Assembly: GCA_016931955.1 (NCBI GenBank)
Contig: JAFGDV010000039.1
Location: forward strand, 1 to 22,716
From: Candidatus Altarchaeota archaeon
GTDB taxonomy: Archaea > Altiarchaeota > Altiarchaeia > IMC4 > QMZM01
Direction: 5' to 3'
DNA length: 22,716 nt
Shown here piece after piece: positions 1-22,716 of the stretch (positions within the stretch are counted from its first letter, which is position 1; the number at the start of each line of letters is the position of its first letter). The notes beneath the pieces are model-generated. The model had not been told where the DNA came from. It saw only the letters and a program-made list of their open reading frames with translations, and searched no databases. A program made the position numbers and the translations under genes.

Positions 1-1
1 G

Positions 2-85
2 GAAGAGGAGGCTAAGCGGATTAAGGAGGAGCGTGAGATGAGGGAAGAGGAGGCTAAGCGGATTAAGGAGGAGCGTGAGATGAGG
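2..85 (+). repeat. Perfect 42-bp tandem duplication, in frame
   Basis: Bases 2-43 and 44-85 are identical copies of a 42-bp unit (14 codons), the second ending at the AGG codon at 83-85. Because the unit is a multiple of three, it duplicates 14 residues without disturbing the frame. More copies may lie left of the window. Perfect nucleotide identity, including wobble positions, suggests recent or ongoing copy-number change. Confidence 0.9.
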
Positions 86-181
86 GAGCATGAGATCATG
101 GAGGCGAAGGAGGGGCGTGAGAAGAAGGGTCATAGGATTAAGAAGAGAAAGGAGGAACATGGGGGAGGTAAGATAGTTTAA
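2..181 (+). CDS. C-terminal end of a Glu/Lys/Arg-rich helical protein (partial)
   Basis: An open frame enters from the left edge and ends at a TAA at 179-181, giving 59 visible residues; the start lies outside the window. The residues are almost all charged (Glu, Lys, Arg) with scattered Ile, Met and Ala, as in a long single helix or coiled coil. Two back-to-back identical 14-residue units (EEEAKRIKEEREMR) open the fragment, followed by a degenerate continuation and a Gly-rich end. The next gene, a roadblock/LC7 protein, starts 55 nt downstream on the same strand, so the two may be cotranscribed. No enzymatic motif is visible and I do not recognise the family; it could be the charged tail of a larger signalling or scaffold protein. 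The reading frame is clear, the function unknown. Confidence 0.7.
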   Translation, partial: EEEAKRIKEEREMREEEAKRIKEEREMREHEIMEAKEGREKKGHRIKKRKEEHGGGKIV

Positions 182-16026: not shown

Positions 16027-16956
16027 CTAACCCCTTGTTGGTAGTTTTCTCATGTAGAATCTCCATCCCATATACCTTAGTTCTACCAGTTTTTCATCTT
16101 CAAGAAGTCTCTCTACGAGATCCCAGCCTTTGTTGTTTTTCTCCAGCAGCTTTCTTACAGCGTCTTCTCTCATTGGATGTACGGATGTGATGCTCAGGAG
16201 ATCCTCTTCGACATCTCCTGTGGAGGAGAATTCGTTGCCTTCATAGCCAATAAGATGTCTCACTTGTCTAATTTTTTCACTGAAGATCTGGTATGCTTTA
16301 TTGATTCTTTTCTCTGGTGGGGGTGTTGCCCATGCCTCTGCTGGTGGTCTCGTTGGTATAGAAAGATAGGCTATGGATGGTTTCAGTCCAGATATGAAGC
16401 CAGCTGTCTCTTTGAGCTCATCGTCGGAATCATTTACGTCATCAATCAGCATCGTCTCGGTTGTTAACTCTCCTCTAAATTCCTTGGCGAATCTTCTTAT
16501 CCCGTCGAGAATCTTTTCCAGCTCCAGGGATTTGCAGGGTCTGTTGATCTTTCTCCAGGTTTTCTCTTTTACGGCGTCGACCTTGAGGGAGACCCAGTCA
16601 GCTTTTTTCAGATCATCTATTACATCATCTCTCCAGAGCAGCGATGAATTTGTTATTACTGCAATCTTTATTCCCAGGGGCTTAAGTAGTTCGATCTCCC
16701 TTCCAAGGTTTATGTCCAGGGTCGGTTCACCGTCTGGGACGAATGTTATGTAGTTCGGTTTCTCCCTTCCTAATACTCTTTTTATCTCTGTCACCAACTC
16801 CTCTGGGGGATAAAACTCCTTTCTCTCTGCGAATGTCCCTTTCACTGCACCAAGTTGGCAGTAGATGCATGAGTAACTACAGACCTTTGGAGGGATGTTA
16901 TTCACTCCAAGGCTTCTACCAAGCCTCCTTGAGGGCACGGGGCCGTAAGCCTTCAT
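16027..16956 (-). CDS. Radical SAM protein (COG0731-like) with C-terminal helical domain
   Basis: The 309-residue protein begins 'MKAYGPVPSRRLGRSLGVNN', the signature of a widespread radical SAM subgroup usually labelled COG0731 (wyosine-synthase-like). The [4Fe-4S]-binding CxxxCxxC is 'CSYSCIYC' (Cys26, Cys30, Cys33). 'YITFVPDGEPTLD' and 'IAVITNSSLL' are typical SAM-barrel strands. A C-terminal segment of about 60 residues ('SVHPMREDAVRKLLEKNN', 'LVERLLEDEKLVELRY') resembles a winged-helix unit. True TYW1 is longer, and I do not think this protein makes wyosine. The ATG at 16956 is preferred to the GTG at 16965 by match to the family start. There is no Shine-Dalgarno; the hairpin module at 16965-16999 lies just upstream. 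It is last in the minus-strand Mrp-MinD array, separated from it by the hairpin cluster. Confidence 0.85.
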   Translation of the reverse strand: MKAYGPVPSRRLGRSLGVNNIPPKVCSYSCIYCQLGAVKGTFAERKEFYPPEELVTEIKRVLGREKPNYITFVPDGEPTLDINLGREIELLKPLGIKIAVITNSSLLWRDDVIDDLKKADWVSLKVDAVKEKTWRKINRPCKSLELEKILDGIRRFAKEFRGELTTETMLIDDVNDSDDELKETAGFISGLKPSIAYLSIPTRPPAEAWATPPPEKRINKAYQIFSEKIRQVRHLIGYEGNEFSSTGDVEEDLLSITSVHPMREDAVRKLLEKNNKGWDLVERLLEDEKLVELRYMGWRFYMRKLPTRG

Positions 16957-16999
16957 TACAAACACGCAAGGATACCGTGGACTTCAGTCCACGGAGGAA
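16954..16999 (-). repeat. Hairpin leader module, copy 1
   Basis: A 35-nt core (16965-16999) contains the palindrome CCGTGGAC-TTCA-GTCCACGG (16975-16994). Copy 2 at 22645-22679 matches at 33 of 35 bases, differing at 16972 and in the hairpin loop (16985). Between core and gene, the 8 bases CATTACAA (plus strand) are also shared; on the minus strand they read TTGTAATG, including the start codon of the radical SAM gene. The plus-strand flank contains TTAC, which is the target tetranucleotide of IS608-type elements. Confidence 0.85.
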
Positions 17000-17180
17000 C
17001 ACGCAAGACCTTTGGTCTTGAGCGTCCGCAAAATTGCAACGCGATTTTTGGGAGCCAAAACTGCCCTGCAGTTTTGCGCTGTCTGAACGTAGTTCAGCAC
17101 ATTGCGTAATACTCCTTACCTTGCGTTTGCACCTCCTTTGTTTTTGACTGTAAGTTCATACCACACCCTTTAGGGTGTGG
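16957..17180. other. Array of six hairpins between MinD/ferredoxin and radical SAM genes
   Basis: The gap carries no gene but is full of short inverted repeats: H1 16975-16994 (8-bp stem); H2 17004-17020 (CAAGACC-TTT-GGTCTTG, extendable to 17001-17025); H3 17030-17048 (AAAATTGC-AAC-GCGATTTT, one G-U); H4 17056-17076 (CAAAACTGC-CCT-GCAGTTTTG, extendable to 17053-17080); H5 17083-17097 (CTGAAC-GTA-GTTCAG); H6 17161-17180 (CCACACCC-TTTA-GGGTGTGG). The stems differ in sequence but have similar length and loops of 3-4 nt. CGCAA or TTGCG motifs recur between or beside them (16965, 17002, 17075, 17103, 17121). On the minus strand a GGAGGTGC at 17138-17131 looks like a ribosome-binding site but no open frame follows. 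The loops TTCA/TTTA in H1 and H6 recall terminal hairpins of IS200/IS605 elements. Confidence 0.8.
17161..17180 (-). repeat. 8-bp perfect hairpin overlapping the MinD stop codon
   Basis: CCACACCC-TTTA-GGGTGTGG is a perfect palindrome around a TTTA loop. On the minus strand its left arm encodes the last codons of the MinD/ferredoxin protein and the loop supplies the TAA stop (17172-17170). It may stabilise the mRNA 3' end, pause transcription, or mark the end of an inserted palindromic element. Confidence 0.75.
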
Positions 17181-18057
17181 TTGTTGATTTTTCGCATAAG
17201 TAGACGCTTAAACTTTCCCAGATTTTTTTTATGTCAATTGAAGCCTTTCCGTCAGAGAATTCAATCAACGTCTTTCCGGCTATCATCGCCTTTGTGACAA
17301 CGGGGTCGTATGGTATCCGCCCAGCTACTTCAACCCATTTTTTCCTGCAGAAGTCCTCTATTCTGTTGGTGTTCTCTTTGTTGATGTCGTATTTGTTCAC
17401 GCAGACTACTGACCTGACTTTGAAGTGGTTTGCAACATCCAGTATCCTCTCCAGGTCGTGTATCCCTGATATTGTGGGTTCTGTGACGATCAATGCTAAG
17501 TCGACTCCTGCGAGGGAGGCTATCACAGGGCAGCCGATTCCAGGGGAGCCATCTACTATTATCAGTTCTTTGTTGTATTTTTCTGTGAGTTTTTTGGCAT
17601 TTTCTTTCACGACTGTGACGAGTTTCCCGGAGGCTTCTTCCGCTATCCTCAGTTTTGCGTGCGCCATTGGTCCGTACCTTGTCTCTGATATGTAAGCATA
17701 GCCGGAGATTTTTTCTTCAAGCTTGATCGCCTCCGTAGGGCATACGTAGACGCAGGCACCGCAGCCCTCGCACCTGATCGAATCTATCTTTAGATCCTCT
17801 ATTGCATTGAATCTGCATACTTCCCCGCATTTTCCGCATTCTATGCACTTTGAATCATCCTTTATTGCCATCTTTGAGCCCTTAAATGGTTGGGTTTCCA
17901 GGATCTTCGGCTTCAGTATCAGGTGCAGGTCTGGGGCGTCCACATCACAGTCAGCTATTACTGCGTTCTTAGCTAGGGCAGCGAACGATCCCACCAAAGT
18001 GGTCTTTCCAGTACCTCCTTTTCCGCTGATAACCAAGAGCTGCTTTATCTCAGACAT
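17170..18057 (-). CDS. MinD-superfamily ATPase with inserted 2x[4Fe-4S] ferredoxin domain (copy 1)
   Basis: The 295-residue protein has a deviant Walker A 'SGKGGTGKTT' (residues 11-20) of the MinD/Mrp type. A ferredoxin insertion has cysteines 71, 74, 77, 81 and 96, 99, 102, 106, enough for two [4Fe-4S] clusters. 'KELIIVDGSPGIGCPVIASL' and 'LALIVTEPTISGIHDLERIL' are the switch regions. Such ATPases (COG1149 type) occur in pairs in ORP-type clusters, and they probably couple ATP hydrolysis to Fe-S or electron transfer. The ATG at 18057 overlaps the end of trmO by 13 bp, so translation is coupled. The C-terminal Thr-Thr-Pro and the stop codon lie within a 20-bp palindrome, so the C-terminus may have been altered by insertion of the hairpin element. 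Confidence 0.92.
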   Translation of the reverse strand: MSEIKQLLVISGKGGTGKTTLVGSFAALAKNAVIADCDVDAPDLHLILKPKILETQPFKGSKMAIKDDSKCIECGKCGEVCRFNAIEDLKIDSIRCEGCGACVYVCPTEAIKLEEKISGYAYISETRYGPMAHAKLRIAEEASGKLVTVVKENAKKLTEKYNKELIIVDGSPGIGCPVIASLAGVDLALIVTEPTISGIHDLERILDVANHFKVRSVVCVNKYDINKENTNRIEDFCRKKWVEVAGRIPYDPVVTKAMIAGKTLIEFSDGKASIDIKKIWESLSVYLCEKSTTTP

Positions 18058-18653
18058 GCTGATATACCCCCCTCTTTAAAGTGGAATCTTATGCATTCAC
18101 AGCATACGCCATGGCTGATGCACTCTATTTTGATACATGGGCAGTCAATCTTGTTAGGACAGGAAAGCCTCTCCAAATTCATTCCAGCAGACTCTTTTGT
18201 CTGCAGGTGTTTGCCCTTGATTTTGCCTTCAAGCCATCCTATCTCAATGCTTTTTCTATCATCAAATTCAGGAACATATGGTTTTATGTCCAACAGCGGC
18301 GTTCCGTCCAAGACATCGATTCCCTCCACCTTCAGGACATTTTTTTCCCGTTCTATCAGTCTTACAATGGAGAGGCCGATTGGATTCGGCCTTCTTGGGA
18401 ATCTGGTAGCGAAAACCCCCCTCAATCCAGTATCCAGGTAGGGTTTTACGTGGAGCTTGTAATCCTCTGACTTATGGAATAGGTAGAGTATTATGATGTG
18501 GGAAAATCCCTCGATGTCCTTCAAACCAGGTTCATATTCCCTGAAGACTTCAATCTTACCTATCGCCTCTGACATGGATGCCTGGATTTGTATCTCTTCA
18601 AGATTCCTGTAGGGCGAATGGATTATCCCTATTGGTTTCAGTTCAAAATTCAT
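18045..18653 (-). CDS. trmO: TrmO/TsaA tRNA N6-methyltransferase with Cys-rich C-terminal tail
   Basis: Residues 1-142 of this 202-residue protein are the TsaA/TrmO beta-barrel, which methylates N6 of t6A37 in tRNA using SAM. Evidence is 'FELKPIGIIHSPY', 'IEGFSHIIILYLFHKS', 'GVFATRFPRRPNPIGLSIVRL' and 'GIDVLDGTPLLDIKPYVPEFD'. Residues 165-202 are a separate Cys-rich tail with cysteines at 165, 171, 173, 178, 184, 185, 187 and 200 ('CISHGVCCECIRFHFKEGG', then ACLR), which resembles a small stand-alone family I recall as DUF6485. It probably binds Zn or an Fe-S cluster. The ATG at 18653 is preferred over upstream in-frame starts because the barrel begins there; it overlaps the MBL gene by 11 bp. 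Flanking MinD/ferredoxin genes raise the alternative that this TrmO-like protein acts in metal-cluster chemistry. Confidence 0.87.
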   Translation of the reverse strand: MNFELKPIGIIHSPYRNLEEIQIQASMSEAIGKIEVFREYEPGLKDIEGFSHIIILYLFHKSEDYKLHVKPYLDTGLRGVFATRFPRRPNPIGLSIVRLIEREKNVLKVEGIDVLDGTPLLDIKPYVPEFDDRKSIEIGWLEGKIKGKHLQTKESAGMNLERLSCPNKIDCPCIKIECISHGVCCECIRFHFKEGGISACLR

Positions 18654-19320
18654 TCTCCAAAACCTTTCCTGCATAGATTTCCTGATAGCCCTCAAATTCT
18701 CTCTTGAATAATCCTATTGCCAGATCCCCGGAGCAGTGGCAGGGAATCGCGTTTTTAACCCCAAGCTTCTTCAGTTCGGCTATGATCCCCAGGATCTCAT
18801 CCTCAGATTTTTCTTTGAGGTGGAAGCCTCCGAAGACCAGTGAGATCTCATCCACTAACTCTTTTGCTTTTTTTATGATCTCTACTATCCCCGGATGGGC
18901 GCAGCCTGTTATAACAGTGTCTTCAACGATCAATGATTGTTCCTTGATTCCAGGGCCGAGTTCTCCTGTCGTTATTATCCCCTCTTCTATCTCTTCCGGC
19001 TCTGAGACCTCGATCAGCTTAGCGTTTTCTCTTATCTTTGATTTAAGGGCGTCGGAAAAAGACTCCAGGATATACACTCTGAGCCCGGGATTTTTTCCTA
19101 GGATATATGGTATACCTCCAATATGGTCCCAGTGCTCGTGTGAGATGACGAGGGTGTCTATTTTTTTGGGGTCTATGTTGAGTCTCTTCATGTTGTGTTC
19201 CAGGATTTTGGCGTCGCCTCCGGTGTCGAATAAAATATTCTTATCCTCTATCAGGCAGGAGAAACCCCACGCCGCCTTCAAGTCTTTCGCCTCGTTGTCG
19301 TATAAGATTTTAAATCTCAT
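18643..19320 (-). CDS. Metallo-beta-lactamase-fold hydrolase (COG1237-like)
   Basis: The 225-residue protein has the MBL metal-site motifs 'SHEHWDHIGG' (His61, His63, Asp65, His66), 'TGCAHPGI' (His142), 'GGFHL' (His167) and 'IPCHCSGD' (His195). The start 'MRFKILYDNEAKDLKAAWGFSCLIE' and 'ILFDTGGDAKILEHNMKRL' resemble COG1237, often annotated from MJ0301 as a pterin-related (RFA-P synthase-like) enzyme; that function is not assured. The AGGTGAAGAAGG ribosome-binding region directly precedes the ATG at 19320 and overlaps the stop of the upstream MinD gene (6 bp gap). COG1237 proteins often sit next to paired MinD/ferredoxin ATPases, as here. It probably hydrolyses or senses a small molecule; the substrate is unknown. 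Confidence 0.9.
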   Translation of the reverse strand: MRFKILYDNEAKDLKAAWGFSCLIEDKNILFDTGGDAKILEHNMKRLNIDPKKIDTLVISHEHWDHIGGIPYILGKNPGLRVYILESFSDALKSKIRENAKLIEVSEPEEIEEGIITTGELGPGIKEQSLIVEDTVITGCAHPGIVEIIKKAKELVDEISLVFGGFHLKEKSEDEILGIIAELKKLGVKNAIPCHCSGDLAIGLFKREFEGYQEIYAGKVLENEF

Positions 19321-19326
19321 CCTTCT

Positions 19327-20157
19327 TCACCTATCTTTTTTGATTTTCTCAAAGACCTCCTTGAATTTTTCCTTCCACTCAGGCATCTCTTGGATGAATG
19401 GGATACCTTTTGAATACAGTTCAGCTATTTTTCTGTCATATGGAATCCTAAGTAGAATCTGGATTCCATTTTTCTTGCAGAATTCTTCAACTTCCTGATC
19501 CCCGATCCCGTCTTGGTTGATTATAACCCCTTTTCGGATTTTGAGTTTCTCAAGAACCCCTATTGCAATTTTCAGATCATATAAACCAAAGGGCGTTGGC
19601 TCGGTAACCAGTATGCAATAATCCGAGCCATGGACTGCTTCTATTACGGGGCAGGATGTTCCCGGCGGAACATCTACTATTGCTATCTTGTTTTTATCAA
19701 TTTCTTCTTTCACAGCACTTATCAGGGGGGTTGACATTGCTTCTCCGATGTTCAGTATCCCCTGTACGAATTCGATTCCATTAGATGACCCTTTTTCGAC
19801 TACGCCTATTCTCCTCTTTTTTTCTGTTATTGCCTTTTTTGGACATACTAGGGCGCATAGCCCGCAGGAGTGGCAGAGTTCTGGGAAGATCAATACGTTG
19901 TCCTCCAGTACTGCGATTGCATTGAATTCGCATGCCTTGGAGCATTTTCTACAGAAGTTGCATTTTTTCTGATCTATTTCGGGCACTGAAACAAAGCAGG
20001 GTTTTCTCTCCCTGATGTCTGGCGTCAGGAATATGTGGGCATTTGGTTCTTCTACATCGCAGTCCAGTAATTGTGCATTCTCTAGGGATAATGCCAGGTT
20101 TACGGCAACCGTTGTTTTCCCTGTTCCGCCCTTACCTGACGCCACCGAGATAATCAT
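19327..20157 (-). CDS. MinD-superfamily ATPase with inserted 2x[4Fe-4S] ferredoxin domain (copy 2)
   Basis: This 276-residue paralogue of the ATPase at 17170-18057 has Walker A 'SGKGGTGKTT' (7-16), the 'LLDCDVEEPNAHIFL' strand, and ferredoxin cysteines at 66, 69, 72, 76 and 95, 98, 101, 105. Switch segments are 'IAIVDVPPGTSCPVIEAV' and 'YCILVTEPTPFGLYDLKIAI'. Its start overlaps the methyltransferase stop as ATGA, and the MBL gene follows after 6 bp. In sulfate-reducer ORP clusters two such ATPases act together, so heterodimer formation with copy 1 is likely (inference). The ATPase and Fe-S assignments are firm; the cellular target is not known. Confidence 0.93.
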   Translation of the reverse strand: MIISVASGKGGTGKTTVAVNLALSLENAQLLDCDVEEPNAHIFLTPDIRERKPCFVSVPEIDQKKCNFCRKCSKACEFNAIAVLEDNVLIFPELCHSCGLCALVCPKKAITEKKRRIGVVEKGSSNGIEFVQGILNIGEAMSTPLISAVKEEIDKNKIAIVDVPPGTSCPVIEAVHGSDYCILVTEPTPFGLYDLKIAIGVLEKLKIRKGVIINQDGIGDQEVEEFCKKNGIQILLRIPYDRKIAELYSKGIPFIQEMPEWKEKFKEVFEKIKKDR

Positions 20158-20804
20158 TTTCTTATTTCGGCAACAATAAATGCACCGAATGGTTTAAAAA
20201 TTCTGGAGAGAATGCCCTCAAAATTTTCAAGATATCTTAAAAGGAATGGTGGGGTGAATTTAGGGGCGAATAATGTTGATTTCCACCTCTTAACTCCGAA
20301 TCTTTTCTTTAATTCAAACGGAGAAAAGAATCTTACACCCATCCAATCTCTCTCAGTTACTCTTCTTTGTAGAGCCCATAAACTGAATTTATTCAGCACA
20401 CATAAAATAATTTTCCCATCCTTCTCCAAAACCCGTTTTCCCTCTTGGATTATTTTTTCTGGGTCATCAACATATTCTAAGATGGTTATTAGAGTAACCA
20501 AATCAAAAGAATTATCCTTGAATGGCAGGTTTTTAGCATCACCAAACACGAAGTCGCATCCTTCAACCTTATTTTTAGCAATTTTTAGCATCTTCCTTGA
20601 TACATCCATCCCAACTACACCCATCCCGTTTCTCTTAAATTCTAATACATAACTTCCTGTTCCGCAGCCGATATCCAACACTTTTTTCTTTTTTTTTGGC
20701 TCTGTAAATATAAAAATCAGTTTTTTTTCTAATCTATCTGCATAACTTCCGATTGGTGTTCCATACCATGAATCATAACTCTTTGCAATCTCGTCGAAAT
20801 TCAT
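20154..20804 (-). CDS. Class I SAM-dependent methyltransferase
   Basis: The 216-residue protein has the Rossmann SAM-binding motif 'VLDIGCGTGSY' (residues 42-52), the acidic post-I motif 'VVGMDVSRKML', 'FGDAKNLPFKDNSFDLVTLI' and 'EGKRVLEKDGKIILCVLN'. It belongs to the UbiE/Methyltransf_11 type acting on small molecules, with a Lys/Phe-rich C-terminal part. It overlaps the MTH1187-like gene upstream and the MinD gene downstream, both as ATGA, so it is part of a tightly coupled operon. The substrate is unknown. The more AT-rich, Lys-rich composition of this gene and the next two, relative to their neighbours, could mean a later addition to the cluster. Confidence 0.9.
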   Translation of the reverse strand: MNFDEIAKSYDSWYGTPIGSYADRLEKKLIFIFTEPKKKKKVLDIGCGTGSYVLEFKRNGMGVVGMDVSRKMLKIAKNKVEGCDFVFGDAKNLPFKDNSFDLVTLITILEYVDDPEKIIQEGKRVLEKDGKIILCVLNKFSLWALQRRVTERDWMGVRFFSPFELKKRFGVKRWKSTLFAPKFTPPFLLRYLENFEGILSRIFKPFGAFIVAEIRK

Positions 20805-21094
20805 CTCAATGCTCTAATCTTTGACTCAATCGTAGCTTTTTTGTCTCTTCTGTCATCTATCTTTATCTCAGTGACAATCCTTTTCACACCTAATCCAAAA
20901 ATAGAATTATGTGCTTTTTTCACAGCTTTGAATAAATCCTCTAAATTTTCAGTTTCAATTATAGTCCCCATGACTTCTGGTTTAACCCTAATTCTCCCAT
21001 CTTTTTCTAATTCCTTTAATACGGCTTTCACATATTTACTAACACTGGGGGTTTTTGTTCCTATAGGGATTATACTAAATTCCGCGATAATCAT
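20801..21094 (-). CDS. MTH1187/YkoF-type thiamine-binding-like protein
   Basis: The 97-residue protein matches the MTH1187 (DUF77) family of small ferredoxin-like-fold proteins, some of which bind thiamine. Evidence is 'MIIAEFSIIPIGTKTPSVSKYVKAVLKELEK' at the N-terminus, the family's shared pattern, then 'VMGTIIETENLEDLFKAVKKAHNSIF' and 'RIVTEIKIDDRRDK'. Length is typical. The start overlaps the J-domain gene by 20 bp and its stop overlaps the methyltransferase start as ATGA. AGAGGA lies 8 nt before the ATG. Ligand and role in this operon are unknown; a link to thiamine or pterin chemistry would be guesswork. Confidence 0.9.
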   Translation of the reverse strand: MIIAEFSIIPIGTKTPSVSKYVKAVLKELEKDGRIRVKPEVMGTIIETENLEDLFKAVKKAHNSIFGLGVKRIVTEIKIDDRRDKKATIESKIRALR

Positions 21095-21431
21095 TTTTCT
21101 TTTCCTCTTTTTTATCCCCCCTTTTTCCAGGACCCCACATCCAATCCTCCTGAAAACCTTTCATATATTTTGTGTAAAAATCTTCTACCTCCTTCTCAGT
21201 AAACGAATATCTGTAGCTTCCACAGTACTCCATTATGAATTCGTAGGCTTCATTTACCTCTTTCATTTGTTTTTCACTTCTCTTTTTCTTCACCTTGCTG
21301 TATTTATCTGGATGATATTTCTTTACTAATTCTCTATAAGATTTCTTGATCTCCTCCAGAGTGGCGCTCTCTCCCAAACCCAAGGTTTTTCTTGCTTCGT
21401 TTATCCTCCTGAAATCAACTGTGTCTTCCAT
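21075..21431 (-). CDS. J-domain (DnaJ-like) protein, stand-alone
   Basis: The 118-residue protein consists of an N-terminal extension, a J domain with 'LEEIKKSYRELVKKYHPDKYS' and the essential HPD at residues 40-42, and a short basic C-terminal tail. There is no Gly/Phe region, zinc finger or client-binding domain, so it is not a canonical DnaJ; its partner would be a DnaK or another ATPase. The ATG at 21431 begins 'MEDTVDFRRINEARKTLGL'. It starts 23 bp after the NifX-like gene and overlaps the MTH1187-like gene by 20 bp. In Fe-S systems J proteins such as HscB assist cluster transfer; a comparable role here is only suggested by its neighbours. Confidence 0.88.
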   Translation of the reverse strand: MEDTVDFRRINEARKTLGLGESATLEEIKKSYRELVKKYHPDKYSKVKKKRSEKQMKEVNEAYEFIMEYCGSYRYSFTEKEVEDFYTKYMKGFQEDWMWGPGKRGDKKEEKKNDYRGI

Positions 21432-21454
21432 TTCTTTTCCGTATTTTTGGTGTA

Positions 21455-21820
21455 TTAATATCTATGTCTGCTCTCTCTGCAAGCGTTTGCCTCTGTTGCT
21501 TTTTGTAATCTCCCTGATCTCCAGAGGGATAAGGCATCCCTTACGGTCCCTGTTGTTCCAACGAAGACCTCTATCCCCGATTGTTCGAACATCCAGATGG
21601 CTCTTTGACCTAGACCAGAACAGAGTAGTATCCCCACACCCTCTCCATGCATTATCTCAGGGGGCTTCCCTGAACCGCCCATGTGCTCGCTTGTGTTATC
21701 AACAATCTTTACTTCATCTGTTTCTGTGTCTACTATGGTGTAGGTCGGAGCCCGCCCGAAATGGGGGCTGACTTCATCATCCAGTCCCTTATGTCCTGTT
21801 GTCGGTATTGCGACCTTCAT
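21455..21820 (-). CDS. NifX/NafY-like (MTH1175-type) dinitrogenase-cofactor domain protein
   Basis: The 121-residue protein is the RNase H-like domain of the NifB/NifX/NafY and Orange Protein (ORP) group that binds metal-sulfur clusters. Typical are '[30 protein letters not shown]', '[19 protein letters not shown]' and '[27 protein letters not shown]'. The gene starts as ATGA with the stop of the Mrp gene, so Mrp and this protein are translated together. In Desulfovibrio the homologous ORP binds a Mo-Cu-S cluster and is encoded with Mrp and MinD-type ATPases, the same set as here; whether this protein binds Mo-Cu, Fe-S or another cluster is unknown. The C-terminal 'ACRESRHRY' is an uncommon basic tail. 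Confidence 0.9.
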
Positions 21821-22635
21821 CCTCTCACCTTCTCAACAATATCATTAAAGGCCTTCCCAGCCTCCGAATCATGATGTTTAAGGATGAATGGATTTCCTTC
21901 ATCGCTGTCTTCGACAATTCTGGGATCGATTGGGATCCTACCCAGGAAGGGAACCTTAAGTTCCTTTGCTGCTTTTTCTCCCCCACCTGTCTTAAACAGG
22001 GTGATCTCTTTTCCGCAGTGGGGGCATTTAAGCCCTGACATGTTCTCGATTATTCCCATGACTGGGATGTTCAACTTCTTTGAGAAATTCACAGCCCTCC
22101 GGGAATCCATCAAGGCAACTTCTTGTGGGGTTGTTACTATGATGGATCCTGTTATGTCGGGGATTAATTGTGCGATACTTAATGGCTCGTCTCCGGTTCC
22201 TGGGGGTAGGTCAAAGATCAGATAGTCCAGATCTCCCCATTCAACATCTGATAGGAACTGCTGTATTGCGCCCATCTTCAATGGACCTCTCCAGATGACT
22301 GGCACGTCTCTTTCCAGCATGAATGCCAGAGACATTACTCTAAGGGCTCTTCCAGCGCCAATTGGTATCTTAGCAGGTTTTATACCCTCTTCAGAAGCAT
22401 CTAGTTTCGTATCTTCTATTCCAAGCATCTTCGGGACATTTGGTCCGTGTATGTCCACGTCTATTAAGCCGACGTTGTAGCCTTTCATCTGTAATGCGAA
22501 GGCAAGATTCACTGCGACGGTGGTTTTTCCCACGCCGCCTTTTCCGCTCATGACCATTATCTTGTTCTTTATCTTTCCGATTCTTTTCTGGATCGATTCT
22601 TTCTGTTCTTCCAGATTTTTCTGCTTGTTCTCCAT
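21817..22635 (-). CDS. mrp: Mrp/NBP35 family Fe-S cluster carrier ATPase
   Basis: The 272-residue protein is a P-loop Fe-S carrier. The deviant Walker A '[10 protein letters not shown]' is at residues 30-39, '[16 protein letters not shown]' at about 58-73, '[36 protein letters not shown]' at about 114-149, and the C-terminal cluster ligands 'CPHC' at 204-207. It lacks an N-terminal ferredoxin cluster but has a Lys/Glu helix of about 25 residues. It binds a [4Fe-4S] cluster at the dimer interface and hands it on. It is the first visible gene of the minus-strand array and overlaps the NifX-like gene as ATGA. No Shine-Dalgarno is seen before the ATG at 22635; the conserved hairpin module lies a few bases upstream. 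Confidence 0.93.
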
Positions 22636-22679
22636 TACAATTTTCGCAAGGGTACCGTGGACTTTAGTCCACGGAGGAA
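22633..22679 (-). repeat. Hairpin leader module, copy 2
   Basis: The core at 22645-22679 matches copy 1 at 33 of 35 bases and contains CCGTGGAC-TTTA-GTCCACGG (22655-22674). CATTACAA at 22633-22640 (start codon of Mrp, minus strand) is shared as well, separated from the core by 4 bases here and 3 in copy 1. TTCGCAA at 22643-22649 pairs with TTGCGAA at 22680-22686, forming an outer stem that copy 1 lacks. Confidence 0.85.
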
Positions 22680-22716
22680 TTGCGAACTATGTTAGTGTTC
22701 GCTTGTCTTGCGTGTA
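22680..22716. other. Continuation of a hairpin region at the window edge
   Basis: GCGAAC (22682-22687) and GTTCGC (22697-22702) can pair around a 9-nt loop, competing with the outer stem of the preceding module. The last bases, GTCTTGCGTGTA, are the reverse complement of a motif close to ACACGCAAGAC in copy 1 (about 17000-17009). The array probably continues beyond 22716; no gene is visible here. Confidence 0.6.

Follow-up and report, generated by a model that had tools for sequence, protein, structure and literature searches.

Why should two near-identical hairpin modules stand directly against the start codons of two genes, one for a radical SAM protein and one for an Mrp-type ATPase, on a single contig of an archaeal genome? 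The window, i.e. the whole stretch of 22,716 nucleotides that was analysed, is one complete contig (C12) of a metagenome-assembled genome (MAG) of Candidatus Altiarchaeales comprising 46 contigs and 1.55 Mb, and this genome was read as stretches covering about 85% of it. The first-pass annotation had aligned the cores at 16965-16999 and 22645-22679 with 33 of 35 bases identical, which was borne out, the differences falling at core positions 8 and 21. It had assigned one difference to the hairpin loop, which is correct for position 21, and the other, position 8 (A at 16972, G at 22652), proved to be a base of the guide described below. The identical context that it reported was likewise found, a minus-strand ATG adjoining both modules within TTGTAATG (at 16956 and 22635), with GTAATG contained in the context common to both sites.

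The modules are, at a probability of roughly 0.94, the left ends of non-autonomous elements of the IS200/IS605 family, of the PATE/MITE type (PATE, palindrome-associated transposable element), presumably moved in trans by a Y1 TnpA. Direct observations were made of the element ends, the covariation of guide and target, element-free sites, the spread in multiple copies and an insertion sequence with a Y1 tnpA in the same order. The features of the two copies and of the adjoining genes are as follows.

16957..17188 (+): copy 1, a complete 232-bp non-autonomous IS200/IS605-type element, delimited by copies with different flanks and by the element-free sites of sister copies
16953..16956 (+): left cleavage/target tetramer (CL) of copy 1, TCAT, host DNA, complementary to the ATGA with which the radical SAM gene begins
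16971..16974 (+): left guide (GL) of copy 1, GATA, directly 5' of the left hairpin and pairing with TCAT by the IS608 scheme
16975..16994 (+): left subterminal hairpin (IPL) of copy 1, CCGTGGACTTCAGTCCACGG
17157..17160 (+): right guide (GR) of copy 1, CATA
17161..17180 (+): right subterminal hairpin (IPR) of copy 1, CCACACCCTTTAGGGTGTGG
17185..17188 (+): right cleavage tetramer (CR) of copy 1, TGAT, the element end; flanks diverge immediately after TGAT in 16 copies
22636..22716 (+): copy 2, left end, cut by the contig end
22632..22635 (+): left target tetramer (CL) of copy 2, CCAT, the complement of ATGG
22651..22654 (+): left guide (GL) of copy 2, GGTA
22655..22674 (+): left hairpin (IPL) of copy 2
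16027..16956 (-): radical SAM gene, its ATG touching the left tip of copy 1
17170..18057 (-): upstream ATPase/ferredoxin-like gene, its last five codons (STTTP) and stop lying inside the element
21817..22635 (-): Mrp-type ATPase gene, its ATG touching copy 2

On the plus strand, copy 1 reads TCAT / TACAAACACGCAAG-GATA-CCGTGGACTTCAGTCCACGG ... GTAAGTT-CATA-CCACACCCTTTAGGGTGTGG-TTGT-TGAT /, so that each hairpin carries a tetramer at its 5' foot, with one cleavage tetramer just outside the left tip and the other forming the right terminus. The G of the left guide, at 16971, is also the final G of AAGG. The palindromes lie subterminally near both ends in the same orientation, and the copies, at 150-280 bp, leave no room for a transposase gene. 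Sister elements, 151-279 bp in length, have their ends in common and differ in their interiors. The core has a consensus fold, common to the copies, in which the left tip pairs with an internal complement to form a helix, and this tip-to-core fold could serve in tnpA control or in transposition. The left tip TACAAACAC is complementary to the sequence just before the right guide. A classical MITE of the DDE type was rejected, as there is no target duplication and the complement of the left tip is internal, before the right guide. Within the interior, a stretch at 17101-17145 (gene-sense AAAGGAGGTGCAAGCGCAAGG) is kept across genera, being found also in sister copies L130 and L131, and is partly kept upstream of tnpA in a tnpA-bearing element; it resembles a Shine-Dalgarno sequence, yet is far from the ATG.

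A chance resemblance, which the first-pass annotation had argued against, is ruled out by a 71-base query around copy 1 that returned 16 matches in the 1.55-Mb genome and recovered copy 2 at E 1.2e-9. The pattern TTGCGN{3,4}TTGTAATG occurred 17 times in the same genome and not once for the reversed control, and left ends of this kind number at least 17 and are dispersed through the genome. Almost every copy of the module is no more than about 150 bases away from where a contig ends. Of the 92 contig ends in the MAG, 39 fall in the left or right end of an element of this group, which indicates that assembly failed within a repeat present in many scattered copies. The same module is present in other Candidatus Altiarchaeales MAGs and in other archaeal MAGs. 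The copies are dispersed singly, unlike what would be expected of a CRISPR repeat. The start of the window (1-180) is a charged, tandemly repetitive stretch (GAGGAGGCTAAGCGGATTAAGGAGGAGCGTGAGATGAGGGAA...), and other contigs end in similar repeats.

If the module were instead a riboswitch-like cis-regulatory RNA leader through which the radical SAM gene and the Mrp operon are co-regulated, as had been suggested, then the stable hairpin, the identical start-codon context and the consensus fold of the core in gene-sense orientation would all be accommodated. This now appears extremely improbable, since the module is absent upstream of all five close radical SAM orthologues, in which the N-terminus MKAYGPVPSRRLG aligns from the first Met, and upstream of all ten Mrp orthologues from the same order. 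Copies elsewhere precede unrelated ORFs, or in 4 of 17 cases no ORF of at least 100 aa; sister copies are polymorphic between related species, being absent at the orthologous sites; and Rfam gave no match at the gathering score.

Mobility was observed at sister copies rather than at the two window copies: when the flanks of four sister copies are joined, they match element-free sequence in related genomes, without target duplication. For copy L208 in genome G011, the match to G005 is at 90% across 220 bp and the junction is exact; L121 matches G005 at 87%, L131 matches G005 at 88% and G012 at 76%, and L130 in G002 matches G009 at 78%. For three GATA copies, the occupied site has ATGA and the related genome now has ATGG or ATGT. 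L208 (G011:C204), from another genus of the same family, is a 151-bp sister element in the 3' end of mrp that replaces the last mrp codons; it is G005 that has the element-free site.

Because GTA is missing from the element-free sites, only the ATG of TTGTAATG is host sequence and TTGTA is element DNA. This bears on the second suggestion of the first-pass annotation, a mobile palindrome inserted at a fixed TTAC target beside start codons. Mobility and a fixed target both stand, while the identity of the target and the free-standing palindrome do not: the real targets are TCAT, CCAT or TTAT on the element strand, the GTA beside the ATG belongs to the element, and the hairpin is one end of an IS200/IS605-type element of 150-280 bp. 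TTAC is further excluded by the AATA/TTAT sister family (family 4), which reads GTA/ATAA. Members of this AATA/TTAT family lie at the ends of contigs C29-C32 of genome G000, and their tip helix is of 13 bp and of different sequence (TACAAAGTCGGCA).

In IS608, GL AAAG goes with CL TTAC and GR GAAT with CR TCAA (PMC5934647), and from these sequences a pairing scheme was inferred in which guide base 1 pairs with target base 2, guide 2 with target 1 and guide 4 with target 4. In the present genome, the base next to the ATG covaries with the guide, GATA occurring with TCAT in 11 of 11 copies, GGTA with CCAT in 6 of 6 and AATA with TTAT in 4 of 4 (21/21); with relatives included, the guide pairs with the target at 37 of 39 left ends (the exceptions, L120 and L129, both being in relatives), although the copies counted share ancestry and so are not independent. 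One of the two differences between the cores of the window, A at 16972 and G at 22652, is therefore the guide base that matches ATGA and ATGG, respectively. Despite the shared ancestry, copy C42 combines GGTA/CCAT with a left end of the C1/C9 subfamily, in which the two remaining members have GATA/TCAT. Right ends also fit the scheme (CATA/TGAT; AATA/TTAT), with some right guides in relatives pairing only by G-T.

By analogy with IS608, a Y1 (HUH) TnpA would move such elements in trans as single-stranded DNA, recognising the hairpin near each end, while the four-base guide 5' of each hairpin would pair with the four-base cleavage or target site, so that the left guide would pick the landing site. 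Guides GATA, GGTA and AATA would in this way choose TCAT, CCAT and TTAT.

As to the source of the transposase, a complete element of 748 bp is present in genome G015 of the same order. It has the same left end, encodes a Y1 transposase (PF01797, E 3.5e-36) and closes with a right end of the guide type, and G015 also has an internally deleted derivative of 420 bp (L164). We infer that a close relative of this insertion sequence, with its right end at five contig ends of the MAG, moved the copies described here, although the right ends differ (CATA/TGAT in the small elements, AATA/TTAT in the tnpA-bearing element), a point against this explanation. No intact Y1_Tnp was found in the MAG itself. 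At one end of contig C6, however, a TnpA-like C-terminus precedes an IS200-type right end, and the same right end is found where contigs C4, C7, C33 and C45 stop (five contig ends in all); intact tnpA copies probably exist and were collapsed out of the MAG. At the 5' ends of contigs C14 and C26 of genome G000, another IS200/IS605-type right end (GAATA-CCGCCGACTTCAGTCGGCGG-ATATTTAT) comes after a C-terminus ...NLLNYT*.

Two further possibilities concern omega-RNA. In general, family members that carry tnpB have a right hairpin and right end similar to those seen here, as would be expected were the right end a TnpB guide RNA scaffold and the element kept by the TnpB nuclease. This is very unlikely given that the genome has no match to Cas12f1-like_TNB (PF07282) and that the related complete element in G015 carries tnpA as its only gene. 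An element of the HEARO/IscB type would belong to the same broad group of mobile elements, would share a structured core and reportedly has an ATGA neighbour. It can hardly be the case here, as Rfam gave no match, the RRXRR (IscB N-terminal) gene is absent from this genome and from 28 relatives of the same class, and no copy with the same ends bearing iscB was found.

The elements land beside start codons because ATGA and ATGG, read on the opposite strand, give TCAT and CCAT, and start-codon adjacency thus largely follows from the target. Insertion 3' of TCAT or CCAT would leave an intact ATG at the tip of the element (TTTGTA/ATG), and copies on a real start codon would keep the downstream reading frame intact, which probably aids their persistence. 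An ORF of at least 100 aa follows 13 of 17 copies in this genome, the other four preceding none, and follows 25 of 33 with relatives included. Against a rough null of about 24-38% of ATG[AG] sites outside gene interiors, based on crude ORF calls, the observed share is in excess by a factor of about two (P 1.5e-3 to 8e-6 for this genome, with copies treated as independent), which may be explained by the loss of harmful insertions.

The same excess could alternatively reflect domestication, whereby a guide reading the start-codon complement (ATGA, ATGG) spreads portable 5' leaders that are kept for an expression effect on the genes they cap, and the conserved core with GGAGGTG and the tip-to-core helix would suit such a role. 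We regard this as unlikely: the copies are young and polymorphic, CAT is already contained in the target, the loss of insertions inside genes would likewise enrich start sites, GGAGGTG is far from the ATG and the null is crude.

The insertion of copy 1 seems to have struck a stop/start overlap. Its joined flanks read GAAAAATGAAGG, and in two related species the radical SAM gene likewise starts at this ATGA overlap, although the gene upstream is a different one. The right end of copy 1 (17170-17188) now gives the upstream ORF its tail STTTP and its stop codon. An upstream ORF of at least 80 aa runs into the element at 5 of 15 right ends in this genome, at least four of these ORFs coming from host DNA.

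Short palindromic non-autonomous repeats tied to Y1 transposases are also known as REP/REPIN with TnpA-REP (RAYT), in contrast to which the elements here have two different end palindromes in one orientation, defined ends and guide/target pairing. The PATEs of Haloquadratum walsbyi, also an archaeal host, are IS605-type elements shortened by internal deletion, with a 4-5 bp targeting sequence (PMC3119063). The present elements are like them in being short, without a transposase gene, with palindromes near both ends and no target duplication, and differ in their sequences, in host phylum, in the covariation of guide and target shown here and in a target that overlaps start codons. With IS608 of Helicobacter pylori they have in common the subterminal hairpins, a guide tetramer 5' of each, a target 5' of the left end and the same pairing (PMC5934647), whereas IS608 carries tnpA and tnpB and targets TTAC, and the elements here are gene-less and target TCAT, CCAT or TTAT. 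A literature search on Altiarchaeota mobile elements and TTCAT/TTTAT motifs found nothing specific.

The elements are an IS200/IS605-derived PATE in Altiarchaeales and belong to an already known type of element. They offer a natural example of the guide change engineered in IS608, with GATA, GGTA and AATA accompanying TCAT, CCAT and TTAT. A guide-targeted element whose target is complementary to ATG and one further base will place its insertions against start codons, where they pass for regulatory leaders. What looked like a regulon is a transposon footprint, and elements of this kind account for 39 of the assembly's 92 contig ends.
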